DNA from: Candidatus Binatia bacterium
Lineage (GTDB): Bacteria > Desulfobacterota > Binatia > UBA12015
NCBI GenBank assembly: GCA_029243485.1
Contig: JAQWRY010000013.1
Span: forward strand, 1 to 50,120
DNA length: 50,120 nt
Reading direction: 5' to 3'
Of the stretch, positions 1,831 through 6,699 are shown in pieces. The notes below the pieces were generated by a model. That model had not been told where the DNA came from and did not search any database. It saw nothing but the letters and a program-made list of their open reading frames with translations. The stretch's first letter is position 1. Every line of letters starts with the position of its first letter. The translations under genes were made by a program, and so were the position numbers.

Positions 1831-3006
1831 GTGGCCGACATCCGCATCGGCTTGGTGGGCGCGGGCTTCCTGGCCGAAACCCGGGCACGTTGTTGGGCCG
1901 CGGCCCGTGGGGTGCACATCGAAGCCGTTGCGTCCGTTCGGCCCGAGCGCGCCGCGGACTTCGCGAAGCGACACGCCGTGCCCCGTGCGTTCGCCACGGC
2001 CGAAGAACTCTTCGCGAGCCCCGACGTCGACCTCGTAGACCTCTGCGTGCCCAACCTGGTGCACCGTTCTCTCACGGAGGCCGCCGCGCGCGCGGGAAAA
2101 CACGTCCTCTGCACGAAACCGCTCACGGCCTACGTCGGCCAGGACCTCGCGGCCGATGCGAGCGACGAGGACATCGCCGGCCGCGATCGCCGAGAGATGT
2201 GGCGCGTCGCCGAGGCCGAGGCGCGGGCGATGGTCGATGCGGCGGCCGCCGCGGGCGTACGTTTGTTCTACGGAGAGAACTGGCTGTACGCGCCGGCGCT
2301 CGAACGTGCGAGTCGTTTGCTTGTCGAGGGTGACACCGTGCTCCTCGAGATGCGCGGATGGGAGTGCCACAACGGTTCGCACTCGCCGTACTCGAAGTCG
2401 TGGCGTCATGCAGGCGGCGGAGCGCTGTTGCGGCTCGGCGCACATCCGATCGGCGCGATGCTTCACCTGAAGCGCGCCGAGGGCCTACGCCGGACGGGGA
2501 AGCCCATCCGTCCCATCGCCGTGACGGCCGATGTCACCGATCTGACCGGCGCGGCGGGTGGCGCGGAGCTTCGCGTCGCCACCGGTTGGCAGGACGTCGA
2601 GAACTGGGGCTGCGCGATCCTGCACTTCGAGGACGGCTCTCGCGGCGTGGCCTACGGCAGCGACGCGGTCCTGGGTGGGATGGAGAGCAAGCTCGAACTC
2701 TACGGAGCGAACGCGCACGTGAAGGTCAACATGAGTCCGAACGACATGCTGCGTGCGTACGCGCCCGACGCCGGCGTATTCGGCGACGCCTACCTGATGG
2801 AGAAGATCGACGGCGGGTCGGGCTGGACCACACCCATGCCGAACGAGGACTGGACCTCGGGCCATCTGCCGATGTGTCAGGCGTTCGCGGATGCGGTGCG
2901 CTCGGGCGGGGATACGCCGGCCGACGGAGTGCTCGGACTCGAGACGACGCGGGTCGTCTACGCAGCCTACGTCGCGGCGAAGGATGGAGTGCGGGTCTCG
3001 CTCTAA
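1831..3006 (+). CDS. Gfo/Idh/MocA family oxidoreductase
   Basis: Predicted NAD(P)-dependent dehydrogenase of 391 residues with a GTG start. The N-terminal Rossmann fold carries GLVGAGFLA near residues 7-15. The family's EKP motif appears as TKPLT near residues 96-100, with Thr in place of the usual Glu. The C-terminal half has the beta-sheet substrate domain (repeated LEL/LEM strands and a GG-AL-RLGAH segment). Members oxidise sugars, inositols or related polyols, or act on other ring alcohols; the substrate here cannot be assigned. It starts 4 nt after the SDR stop, so it is translated from the same message. Start taken at 1831 because the Rossmann strand begins a few residues later. Confidence 0.9.
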   Translation: MADIRIGLVGAGFLAETRARCWAAARGVHIEAVASVRPERAADFAKRHAVPRAFATAEELFASPDVDLVDLCVPNLVHRSLTEAAARAGKHVLCTKPLTAYVGQDLAADASDEDIAGRDRREMWRVAEAEARAMVDAAAAAGVRLFYGENWLYAPALERASRLLVEGDTVLLEMRGWECHNGSHSPYSKSWRHAGGGALLRLGAHPIGAMLHLKRAEGLRRTGKPIRPIAVTADVTDLTGAAGGAELRVATGWQDVENWGCAILHFEDGSRGVAYGSDAVLGGMESKLELYGANAHVKVNMSPNDMLRAYAPDAGVFGDAYLMEKIDGGSGWTTPMPNEDWTSGHLPMCQAFADAVRSGGDTPADGVLGLETTRVVYAAYVAAKDGVRVSL

Positions 3007-3062: not shown

Positions 3063-3101
3063 TTCATGAGTACCCTGCGGTAGGAAGACTCGGGGGTCCC
3101 G

Positions 3102-4178
3102 GTGCGTGAGGAGCTTCAGCAGTCCCACGCCGCCATTCTGGAGCACGTAGCGTCGCCCGGAACCTGGTGGACGGCGGCGGAACGCGTGGCGCTCGTCGAA
3201 GAGAGTCGCAACGGTCACGACTGCGCTCTGTGTCGCAAACGCAAAGCGGCGCTGTCGCCGAACGTGGTGCGGGGCGAGCACGATAACCTCGGTCAGTTCT
3301 CCCAGAACGTCGTCGACGTGGTCCATCGGATCCGCACGGATCCCGGCCGCCTTTCGAAGGGTTGGTACGACTCGGTGATCGCCGGTGGGGTCTCAGAAGA
3401 GTAGTACGTGGAACTCGTCGGCGTCGTCACGATCATTGCGGGCGTCGACTACTTCGCCCGTGCCCTCGGCGTACCGCGCGCGGAGCTGCCGGCGCCGAAG
3501 CCGGGAGAGCCGAGTCGCCATCGCCCGGCGGGAGCCAGGCACGGGATCGCGTAGGTTCCGCTCGTCGCTGCCGAAGATGCCGTCGGTCCGGAAGAAGGAA
3601 CGTACGGCGGCCAGAATATGGTGCCCAACATCATGAGGGCGCTCAGCCTCGTGCGGGATCAGGTTCGTGCGCTCATCCGCAGTTCGAACGCGCACTACTT
3701 CGAGATGGACACGATGATGGACCCGCTCGCGAAGCGGCATCTCGATCAAATGGGAGTGGAACTCGTGGCGTCGAGGGTCTCGGCGCTCAACGAATGCTTC
3801 TATTGAACGACCGCGCACTCCGCGCTGCTCCGTGTGAGCAGCCTAGCAACCGGTAGCGAGATCGAGCTCGGTGGGGTGAACGAAGGTGAAGGGGAGGGCG
3901 ACGCCGGCATTTCGCACGGCGCTCGCCTTCTGGCATTCACGGATGCCGTAATGCGGGGAAAAGACGCGGAGCTGGAGCGCGAACGCAAGGCGCTCAACGA
4001 CGAAGAGTACGTGGATGCCGTCGCGACGGTCGGCGCGTTCAACGTCGTCGACCGCATCGCGGATTCCACCGGAATCCCGCTCGATGCGACGCTCGAAGCT
4101 GTGAGTAAAGACGTCCGGGACGAGTTGGGTCTGGCCCGCTTCGGCTCGTCCGCCAATACGCCGGGCGCGCGCGTCTGA
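3102..4178 (+). CDS. Tandem CMD/AhpD-like peroxidase-type protein, candidate selenoprotein, frame interrupted by TAG, TAG and TGA
   Basis: A single frame of 358 codons encodes two carboxymuconolactone-decarboxylase/AhpD-like helical domains. Family members use a Cys-x-x-Cys pair and a downstream His for peroxide or disulfide chemistry. Domain 1 shows DCALC (Cys41, Cys44). Domain 2 shows ECFY, then TGA at codon 235, then TTAHS, so the TGA replaces the second Cys of CxxC with the partner His four codons later. A hairpin of bacterial SECIS type follows at 3824-3842. Two further in-frame stops, TAG at codon 101 (after VSEE) and TAG at codon 151 (before VPLVAA), remain unexplained; related proteins as I recall them have a variable residue and Trp there. 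No frameshift occurs anywhere. If the TAGs terminate, domain 2 could still be made from the ATG at 3618, giving a 186-residue selenoprotein with Sec at position 63. Alternatively the whole gene is a young pseudogene. GTG start at 3102 behind a candidate promoter. Confidence 0.6.
3402..3404 (+). other. In-frame TAG, codon 101 of the CMD gene
   Basis: The codon lies between GVSEE and YVELVGVV, within the continuous helix of domain 1. Family similarity continues on both sides in the same frame. A one-base change from GAG would produce it. TAG is an ordinary stop for many neighbouring genes (for example those ending at 1826, 5884, 8028 and 19216), so general reassignment of TAG is unlikely. Confidence 0.8.
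3552..3554 (+). other. In-frame TAG, codon 151 of the CMD gene
   Basis: This stop lies between HGIA and VPLVAAED in the linker joining the two domains, again without any shift of frame. From memory of the family the position is usually Trp, so a TGG to TAG transition would explain it. Confidence 0.75.
3804..3806 (+). other. In-frame TGA at the catalytic CxxC position: candidate selenocysteine codon
   Basis: TGA follows CFY and precedes TTAHS, which makes a CxxU motif. Cys-containing relatives have CFYC followed by a conserved His. CMD-domain and AhpD-like selenoproteins with Sec at this position are a known class in bacterial metagenomes. The hairpin 17 nt downstream supports recoding. Confidence 0.65.
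3824..3842 (+). promoter_or_regulatory. Candidate bacterial SECIS element
   Basis: GCTGCTC (3824-3830) pairs perfectly with GAGCAGC (3836-3842) around the 5-nt loop CGTGT (3831-3835). The loop starts 25 nt after the TGA and has G at its second position. Bacterial SECIS elements lie within the coding region just after the UGA, with the apical loop roughly 16-37 nt downstream and a G among its first two bases, so both criteria are met. Confidence 0.6.
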
Positions 4179-4537: not shown

Positions 4538-5884
4538 ATGGGCATGAAGATGGAAGACATGATTTTGGTCAGCGTCGATGACCACGTGTGCGAGCCTCCC
4601 GACATGTTCGATAATTCCGTTCCGGCGAAGTGGAAGGACAAGGCGCCGAAGCTGCAGCACAAGTCGGACGGCTCGGACGTCTGGGTCTTCGACGGAAACC
4701 AGATACCCAACGTCGGCTTGAACGCCGTCGCCGGTCGTCCTCCCGAAGAGTACGGGATGGAACCGACCGCGCTCAGCCAGCTGCGCGACGGCTGTTGGAA
4801 CAGTGCCGCCCGCATCGATGACATGAACGTAAACGGTGTCCTCGGGTCGCTGTGCTTCCCCTCTGTACCGGGCTTCACCGGCGAGCTGTTCGCCAGGCAG
4901 GCCAAGGAAAACAACGATCCCGAGCTCGCTCTCGTGATGGCGCGAGCCTACAACGACTGGCACATCGACGAGTGGTGCGGGGCGCATCCCGGCCGGTTCA
5001 TCCCCCTCGCGATCCCGATGATGTGGGATCCGAAGCTGATGGCCGAGGAGGTTCGGCGCGTCGCGAAGAAGGGCTGTCACGCGATCACGTTCCCTGATGT
5101 TCCGAGCGGGCTCGGGTACCCCAGTGTTCACAGCGACCACTGGGATCCCTTCTGGCAGGCCTGTCAGGACGAAGGCACGGTCGTGTGCATCCACATCGGA
5201 TCCGGCACCGGGATGAGCCTCCAGGATACGACCGCGCCAATCGAGGTGATGATCTCGAGCACGCCGATCACGCTCTACAACTGCGCGGTCGAGTTGGTCT
5301 TCAGCGATGCCTTCCGCAAGTTCCCGGATCTCAAGGTTGCACTCTCCGAAGGTGGAACGGGCTGGATCGCGTACTGTCTCGAGCGAATGGACTACGTGCA
5401 CGAGCACCATAATCCCTGGACGTTGCATCGCTTCCCCGACGGGAAGAAGCCGAGCGACGTGTTCCGCGATCACATCATCACCTGCTTCATCGATGACGCC
5501 GTGGGCATTGCGACGCGCGACCGGATCGGGATCGACACCATCACCTGGGAGTGCGACTACCCGCACTCCGATACGACCTGGCCTCATTCGCCAGAGAAGC
5601 TGTGGGCCTCTCTTGGCGGCGTTTCCGACGAAGACATCGACAAGATGACGCATCTGAATTCGATGCGGCATTTCCAGTACGATCCGTTCCGGCACATCCC
5701 GCGTGAGCAGTGCACGGTGGCTGCGCTTCGCTCGCAGGCGACGCACGTGGACCTCACGCCCAAGGGCGGGAAGGGCGGCAAGGCGCCGTCGGACTACGAG
5801 CGCGGGTACGCCACCGTCGGTGACATCATCAGTCAGATGGCGACCGCCTTCGCGACGCCCTTCGACGAGAGCCCGCCAAAGTAG
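4538..5884 (+). CDS. Amidohydrolase family protein (amidohydrolase-2 type)
   Basis: Predicted metal-dependent TIM-barrel hydrolase or decarboxylase of 448 residues. The N terminus has the family's first metal site written as SVDDHVCEPP, near residues 10-19. Later landmarks are a CIHIGSG strand near 215 (metal His) and the ECDYPHSDTTWPHS segment near 345, where the Asp and His ligands are expected. Proteins of this type are common next to acyl-CoA genes in steroid- and terpenoid-degrading bacteria, often with unknown substrate. AGGAGG at 4526-4531 fixes the ATG at 4538; the frame is open upstream but lacks similarity. Its TAG stop overlaps the GTG start of the next crotonase by one base, so the two are translationally coupled. 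Confidence 0.9.
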   Translation: MGMKMEDMILVSVDDHVCEPPDMFDNSVPAKWKDKAPKLQHKSDGSDVWVFDGNQIPNVGLNAVAGRPPEEYGMEPTALSQLRDGCWNSAARIDDMNVNGVLGSLCFPSVPGFTGELFARQAKENNDPELALVMARAYNDWHIDEWCGAHPGRFIPLAIPMMWDPKLMAEEVRRVAKKGCHAITFPDVPSGLGYPSVHSDHWDPFWQACQDEGTVVCIHIGSGTGMSLQDTTAPIEVMISSTPITLYNCAVELVFSDAFRKFPDLKVALSEGGTGWIAYCLERMDYVHEHHNPWTLHRFPDGKKPSDVFRDHIITCFIDDAVGIATRDRIGIDTITWECDYPHSDTTWPHSPEKLWASLGGVSDEDIDKMTHLNSMRHFQYDPFRHIPREQCTVAALRSQATHVDLTPKGGKGGKAPSDYERGYATVGDIISQMATAFATPFDESPPK

Positions 5885-6699
5885 TGGGGGCGGAACGGCG
5901 GTCTGAAGTGGCGGCGGGATCGACCGTCCACGTCGAGACGCGGGCCGGCGTCGCGCGGATCACCCTTAACCGGCCGGAGCGCAAGAACGCCTTCACGGAC
6001 GCGATGTGGCACGACTTCCTCGCTGCGCTCGGCGGGGTGCTTGCCGATCCCGGCGCGCGCGTCGTCGTCCTGACTGGCGCCGATAGCAACTTCACCGCTG
6101 GGGCCGACATGGCGCTCATCGAAGGAAAGGGCGAGGGCGACTCGAGCGGGCCGCATCCATTCAGCGGCGTGATGGATCACCTCACCACCACCTTCGACAA
6201 GCCGATGATCGCTGCGGTCGACGGCGTCGCGATCGGTTTCGGCCTCACGATCCTGCTGCACTGCGACTTCGTCTACGTGAGCAGTCGTGCGCGCCTTCGC
6301 GCGCCGTTCGTGAAGCTGGGCGTCGTGCCGGAGGCGGCGTCGAGCTTTCTCTTTCAGGAGATCCTCGGCGTGCGGAACACGGCGGAGCTGCTCTACGCGA
6401 CCGACTTCATCGACGGGCCGCGCGCGGTTGCTCTCGGACTCGCCAACGCCTGCGTTGAGCCGGACGCGTTGATGGCGACGGCGCAGGCGACGGCCGATCG
6501 CATAGCCGGGGATCCGCCGGGGGCCGTTCGCGCGACGAAGCGTCTCTTGCTGGAAGCCCGTCGCGATCAGGTCCTGGCCGCGGTGGAGCGGGAGAACGCG
6601 GCCTTTGCTCTCCGGATGGGGACGCCCGAGAACGTGGAGGCACTCACTGCGTTCTGGGAGAAGCGTCCTCCGGACTTCTCGAAGCTTCCCGAGGAGTGA
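5884..6699 (+). CDS. Enoyl-CoA isomerase/hydratase family protein
   Basis: Crotonase-fold protein of 271 residues with GTG start overlapping the preceding stop (TAGTG). It has the oxyanion motif NFTAGADM near residue 78 and DGVAIGFG near 120. The active-site region reads KLGVVPEAASS, the pattern of delta3,delta2-enoyl-CoA isomerases in which the Glu after VP acts as base, rather than the two-Glu hydratase pattern. It probably shifts a double bond during breakdown of an unsaturated or ring-derived acyl-CoA. Co-transcribed with the amidohydrolase, suggesting a joint pathway. The C terminus (FWEKRPPDFS) is the typical family end, so it is complete. Confidence 0.9.
   Translation: MGAERRSEVAAGSTVHVETRAGVARITLNRPERKNAFTDAMWHDFLAALGGVLADPGARVVVLTGADSNFTAGADMALIEGKGEGDSSGPHPFSGVMDHLTTTFDKPMIAAVDGVAIGFGLTILLHCDFVYVSSRARLRAPFVKLGVVPEAASSFLFQEILGVRNTAELLYATDFIDGPRAVALGLANACVEPDALMATAQATADRIAGDPPGAVRATKRLLLEARRDQVLAAVERENAAFALRMGTPENVEALTAFWEKRPPDFSKLPEE

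Follow-up and report, generated by a model that had tools for sequence, protein, structure and literature searches.

A probable recently inactivated copy of a known selenoprotein gene, with a genuine selenocysteine site, in Candidatus Binatia

The window analysed here is the whole 50,120-nt stretch of contig JAQWRY010000013.1, part of a genome (GCA_029243485.1) of 6,548,273 bases in 88 contigs with 97.52% completeness and 2.22% contamination. Near its beginning lie the remains of a selenoprotein gene among five neighbouring open reading frames, with the following features:

31-894, other strand: enoyl-CoA hydratase-like protein
996-1826: SDR
1831-3006: GFO/IDH/MocA oxidoreductase
3066-4178, + strand: remains of an NF041238 (AhpD_rel_CFYUT) selenoprotein gene
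3081-3083, + strand: in-frame TAG no. 1; a Tyr codon in both same-genus orthologues
3222-3233, + strand: CxxC (CALC) of the N-terminal AhpD-like half, aligned on relatives with CFYU of the C-terminal half
3402-3404, + strand: in-frame TAG no. 2; 10 aligned relatives have Gln, Lys, Arg, His, Ser or Pro
3552-3554, + strand: in-frame TAG no. 3; the 10 aligned relatives that cover it all have Trp
3618-3620, + strand: possible internal start ATG, the first in-frame ATG, GTG or TTG past the last TAG
3795-3806, + strand: CxxU motif, with Cys (3795-3797), Phe, Tyr and the predicted Sec codon TGA (3804-3806)
3816-3818, + strand: invariant His of the CxxUTxxH motif
3824-3842, + strand: predicted bacterial SECIS hairpin, 7-bp stem, CGTGT loop, TGA-to-loop distance 24 nt
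up to 5884: amidohydrolase
5884-6699: enoyl-CoA hydratase-like protein

The five neighbouring ORFs are intact and contain no internal TAG. The same gene order, including the NF041238 gene, is found at 77-83% DNA identity in a sister species of the same genus (G001), where the first hydratase gene and the SDR gene lie about 2.6 kb farther apart. The syntenic orthologue in G001 is open apart from its TGA and has sense codons at all three TAG places.

ATG 3066 is the counterpart of the start codon in the same-genus orthologues, and the final stop of the gene is the TGA at 4176-4178. The sequence-only reading had placed a CxxC-like motif with TGA for its second Cys at 3795-3806, followed by a conserved His and by continued homology. 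The sequence agrees on all of these points, with the His at 3816-3818, and homology extends past TGA 3804-3806 up to TGA 4176. The residues after the TGA are Thr-Thr-Ala-His, and the copy thus carries the CFYUT motif, with U encoded by TGA, and then the conserved His. That reading had also assumed an open, continuous two-domain frame, and this assumption failed: the gene is not a single open frame apart from the Sec codon, since TAG codons at 3081, 3402 and 3552 precede TGA 3804-3806, so that a ribosome starting at ATG 3066 or GTG 3102 hits a TAG ahead of it. TAG 3081 lies shortly after ATG 3066, and the other two lie between CALC and CFY-TGA. Among the relatives examined, an internal TAG was seen in this copy alone; at the place of TAG 3081, 29 of the 35 loci checked have Tyr and none has a stop.

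Read through its interruptions, with the two TAG codons past 3102 taken as X and the TGA as U, the protein scored 430.4 bits against NCBIfam NF041238 (cut-off 175) and matched model positions 2-356 of 357. This full-length match to a family of alkylhydroperoxidase-related (seleno)proteins, whose name (AhpD_rel_CFYUT) itself states the CFYUT motif, makes the copy a member by descent, which does not imply that the gene is active. It differs in its three in-frame TAG codons, which no other match examined contains. A full-text literature search for NF041238 led to a 2026 review (PMC13188914), whose listing equates this AhpD-related, CxxU-bearing family with 'hypothetical protein 1' from the Sargasso Sea selenoproteome. 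The passages on that family in the 2005 report (PMC1088965) describe a conserved CXXU motif and give no functional evidence; our copy shares the CxxU family with it, the equation with NF041238 being that of PMC13188914. A single table row in PMC1242214 records a carboxymuconolactone decarboxylase-like match of another organism. The sequence-only reading had regarded the two-domain form with one CxxC and one CxxU as undescribed. Since NF041238 spans both halves and is catalogued in PMC13188914, we dropped the idea of a novel two-domain class.

Comparison of the two halves as profiles (hhalign, on relatives) aligned C41xxC44 with C232xxU235 at an E value of 1.5e-4 and a probability of only 52%. 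On the relatives, the architecture thus appears to be that of two homologous AhpD-like halves in which CxxC is the counterpart of CxxU, and Pfam CMD matches the C-terminal half alone. The AlphaFold model of one orthologue (L051) has a mean pLDDT of 94.8. The C-terminal half resembles single-domain AhpD-like proteins (PDB 6k40, 2prr, 3c1l), with a profile match of 3.3e-13 to 6k40 and a TIGR01926 score of 41.8 bits, below the cut-off of 81.8; in a fold search it retrieved AhpD-like proteins at a TM score of 0.70 on the target and a weak best E value of 2.8e-3, no match reaching 0.001 or better. Relative to these single-domain proteins, the NF041238 family adds the N-terminal AhpD-like half, and Sec replaces the second Cys. 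Foldseek also aligned Sestrin2 (PDB 5dj4, 9lvj, 5t0n) along the two-half model over 360-411 columns, a weak match that we treat as a lead only (E 0.06 to 0.43, rmsd 12-15 Å, identity 10-11%). An intact gene may well encode an AhpD-type enzyme with peroxidase-like, thiol/selenol-dependent activity.

We compared the Sec codon across relatives in three overlapping collections. Across 58 genomes, our own included, there were 27 match loci, and all 25 that cover the codon have TGA; these 25 include the 3066-4178 copy, its two paralogues and three CHYU-type relatives, and the other two loci are partial and stop short of the codon. In a named genome collection, which overlaps the 58-genome set, the best 80 of 185 relatives comprise 79 with TGA, one with TAA (L106) and none with Cys, while Cys forms are possible among the other 105 weaker relatives. 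Finally, among 148 genomes of the class, 28 yielded a total of 41 match rows; 38 of these contain one TGA, three are partial and contain none, and TAG occurs in the 3066-4178 row only, the placement of the TGA being checked only for rows that also occur in the 58-genome set or the named collection. The TAA-bearing locus (L106 3001-4089; G148:C86:647-1729) is an alphaproteobacterial NF041238-like relative that has kept a SECIS-like hairpin; it is the sole family copy at E 1e-20 or better in its genome, where selB is matched in part at 285.3 bits, above cut-off. Three shorter AhpD-like relatives from the class (L036, L043, L044) carry CHY-TGA and represent a second Sec-bearing kind, the CHYU type.

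The hairpin at 3824-3842 (GCTGCTC / CGTGT / GAGCAGC) has seven perfect pairs, a 5-nt loop with G at position 2 and a stem that begins 17 nt past the TGA, exactly the geometry previously read from the letters. The bacterial SECIS model given in the Fig. 2 legend of PMC13188914 requires a loop of 3-9 nt, a stem of 4-16 bp, a G within the first two loop positions, a UGA-to-loop distance of 16-37 nt and an MFE of at most -7.5 kcal/mol; with 5 nt, 7 bp, the loop-2 G, 24 nt and -10.6 kcal/mol, the hairpin falls within every limit of that legend. The isolated 19-nt hairpin is more stable than all of 200 shuffles (z -3.95). Because the fold energies of longer pieces around it are unremarkable (36 nt, z -1.16, equalled by 27 of 200 shuffles; 47 nt, z -0.62, equalled by 48 of 200), fold energy is weak evidence for a SECIS element here.

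It is conservation and covariation across relatives that raise the hairpin above chance. We counted pairs in 103 rows reduced to 91 distinct ones, including the TAA locus and three CHYU-type relatives; L079 and L096, both with TGA at the Sec place, did not fit the motif pattern and are outside the counts. From the innermost to the outermost, the stem pairs form in 90, 90, 87, 90, 89, 67 and 78 of the 91 rows, and loop position 2 is G in all 91. Pair 21-37 is C-G in 53 rows, A-T in 10 and unpaired in 24; pair 20-38 is G-C in 63 and A-T in 9; and pair 26-32 is C-G in 84, T-A in 4 and G-C in 2. None of 2000 column shuffles reached the observed pairing of these three pairs, a comparison that ignores relatedness and is made on a stretch that is also coding.

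The genome has the complete Sec machinery. All four genes that the sequence-only reading had proposed to look for were found above cut-off: selA (544.6 bits) and selB (348.8 bits) are adjacent on contig 86, tRNA-Sec (selC, anticodon tca, 75.6 bits, called tRNA-Sec by ARAGORN) lies on the same contig, and selD (285.4 bits) is on contig 47. The tRNA-Sec cut-off is not fully specific, as a second match above it in the same genome (49.8 bits) is a tRNA-Leu by ARAGORN. As controls, the selB, tRNA-Sec and selD models match in 14 of 14 control genomes and exceed their cut-offs in 2, 5 and 2, respectively; the selA model matches in 4 of 14 and exceeds its cut-off in one. Neither of the two findings that would have spoken against Sec was made: the machinery is not absent, and close homologues do not end at the TGA codon. 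Presence of the family is uninformative about the machinery within the class: 123 of 148 genomes have selA above cut-off, comprising 25 of the 28 with the family and 98 of the 120 without. The selD gene (G000:C47:88313-89227, L049) lies inside a 766-residue open frame and may be fused to another domain. Elsewhere, the UGA-containing gene occurs in G045 (99% complete; C97:6103-7173, L183) and in G002 (87%, same genus as our genome), in neither of which selA is matched or selB exceeds its cut-off, and in G103 (80%), where only a piece of selA below cut-off was found.

Taken together, the complete Sec machinery, the TGA in relatives and the SECIS-conforming, covarying hairpin indicate that TGA 3804-3806 is an authentic Sec codon by descent. 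The proposal of a Sec codon with a matching SECIS element thus stands as regards ancestry, and is not supported for the gene copy in its present form, which is interrupted upstream by three TAG codons.

The genome contains two paralogues, both with TGA at the same codon. One, on contig C28 (303.3 bits against NF041238, cut-off 175), is open save for the TGA and has the form without the N-terminal CxxC, like that of G008. The other, a partial copy on contig C10 (229.1 bits), is missing the core of its N-terminal half; the remaining pieces lie in different frames, with a gap of 15 residues directly ahead of NQCFY-TGA. Since the nearest relatives of the C10 copy (L024, L038) carry CxxC, the genome's two representatives of the CxxC-bearing type, that at 3066-4178 and that on C10, are both disrupted. 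In the decayed C10 copy (G000:C10:79026-80045; L010, L045) the TGA is kept, and the hairpin has two G-T pairs and one mismatch among its seven.

We asked how TAG is decoded in this genome. Pyrrolysine decoding was rejected, the best PylS match scoring 25.8 bits, far below the cut-off of 178.15. An amber suppressor tRNA was likewise rejected: ARAGORN called 46 of the 47 tRNA matches, none with a CUA anticodon, a gene missed from a 97.52% complete genome being possible. The 47th match (G000:C77:323-386, L170) corresponds to the 3′ end of a gene resembling tRNA-Arg(tct) and has no 5′ half; it may be an integration-site remnant. An EF-Tu-like gene, 396 residues long, has TAG as its stop. Over 850,120 bases, roughly 1/8 of the genome, a coding-like frame follows the stop in 11 of 169 cases for TAG, 22 of 259 for TGA and 5 of 32 for TAA; judged by eye, most of these look like neighbouring genes sharing a frame, a clear exception being the Sec TGA of the C28 paralogue. 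With no excess after TAG in that portion, genome-wide amber reading was also rejected. TAG behaves as an ordinary stop in this genome.

The age of the damage was estimated from the changes since the split from G001. In the 3066-4178 copy, 59 changes are synonymous and 37 non-synonymous, against 46 and 30 in the orthologue (Fisher p = 1), with no sign of clear relaxation of constraint over the branch as a whole; the counts leave out 60 ambiguous sites, four codons without outgroup and the codons before 3102. Before TAG no. 3 the copy has 23 synonymous and 15 non-synonymous changes and after it 36 and 22, and domain-specific retention of the C-terminal half was rejected for want of a contrast. 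There is no frameshift in the homologous frame, and the one length change noted relative to the orthologue is a four-codon in-frame gap. At columns at least 95% conserved in 38 relatives, the only departures not shared with the orthologue are P185R and R216Q (Pro185 is invariant in 39 aligned relatives and Arg216 nearly so), as mild relaxation would give. Given the three nonsense changes, a pseudogene model is best fitted with 0.14 of the branch unconstrained (support interval 0.05-0.31, log-likelihood -13.6), and a model with TAG as sense and unchanged constraint gives -11.5, which is 2.1 log units better. This estimate is rough: parsimony was applied with a single outgroup that is divided between two contigs, the mutation spectrum comes from the same changes, multiple hits are uncorrected, and TAG 3081 enters the model fit although codons before 3102 are outside the substitution counts.

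We consider it likely that 3066-4178, a copy of a known selenoprotein gene with a genuine Sec site, was inactivated recently, its loss of function and the recency of that loss both being inferred. The ancestral gene would have encoded two AhpD-like halves, with CxxC in the N-terminal one and CFYU-T-x-x-H in the C-terminal one, and until recently the UGA at 3804-3806 would have been decoded as selenocysteine via SelB, Sec-tRNA and the hairpin 17 nt on. The three in-frame ambers would be recent gains, and the full protein is probably no longer made; the UGA and SECIS element would still be present because the decay is recent. For Sec to be inserted at 3804-3806 today, translation would have to start internally or read through the ambers, or the assembly would have to be wrong.

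The last of these is unlikely, though the least so of the alternatives. Consensus errors or the mixing of strains in a metagenome assembly would then have produced the three TAG codons, and the gene itself would be open like any ordinary NF041238 selenoprotein gene. Constraint that is not relaxed outside the TAG codons, an otherwise intact frame and the family-typical UGA and SECIS element fit such an error, as do the 88 contigs and 2.22% contamination of a genome whose metagenome origin is suggested by its draft state; yet it would have to strike a single gene at three separate points and leave five neighbouring ORFs intact, and the C10 paralogue of the same genome is broken too. Slightly less probable still is continued production of the C-terminal half, initiated within the gene at a codon such as ATG 3618, giving a one-domain AhpD-like selenoprotein with CFYU. 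ATG 3618 is indeed the first in-frame start past the last TAG, and the downstream part resembles single-domain AhpD-like proteins (6k40, 2prr; TIGR01926 below cut-off). Against this, constraint is alike before and after TAG no. 3, inspection by eye shows no Shine-Dalgarno-like sequence suitably spaced from ATG 3618 (some 18 nt separate it from the nearest purine-rich stretch), and its Met is not common to the aligned relatives.

A quite improbable alternative is readthrough of UAG, in this gene or in the organism at large, with the full Sec protein still being made; UAG would be tolerated via gene-specific readthrough or an unseen suppressor, and a single message would carry three decoded ambers and a Sec UGA. 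That the extra stops are all TAG, with no TAA or extra TGA, and that constraint is unchanged would fit, and the slightly better fit of the TAG-as-sense model, which counts against our preferred reading, is why we still give this alternative some, if low, probability. The mutation spectrum by itself, however, would make about 70% of nonsense changes TAG, and the residues of relatives at the three places are unlike one another. Recent loss is preferred over readthrough since nothing else in the genome supports a reading of TAG: PylS is below cut-off, no CUA tRNA is among the 47 matches, the EF-Tu-like gene stops at TAG, the surveyed 850,120 bases show no excess of coding-like frame after it, and the five neighbouring ORFs lack internal TAG. 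That TGA 3804-3806 is a plain stop and the hairpin a chance structure is hardly credible; the unremarkable fold energies of the longer pieces (36 and 47 nt) would suit it, while the conserved TGA, the continuing homology, the covarying hairpin and the complete Sec machinery contradict it.

With recent inactivation as the likely reading, selenoprotein biology gains a member of a known family and no new class, and we do not claim that decayed selenoprotein copies as such are new. An in-frame TGA with a perfect SECIS element can occur in a copy whose upstream frame has already closed, so that Sec predictions based on motif plus hairpin alone can point to genes whose expression is improbable. In this organism, where two of three family copies are disrupted in a genome with the full Sec machinery, the pattern looks like loss in progress.
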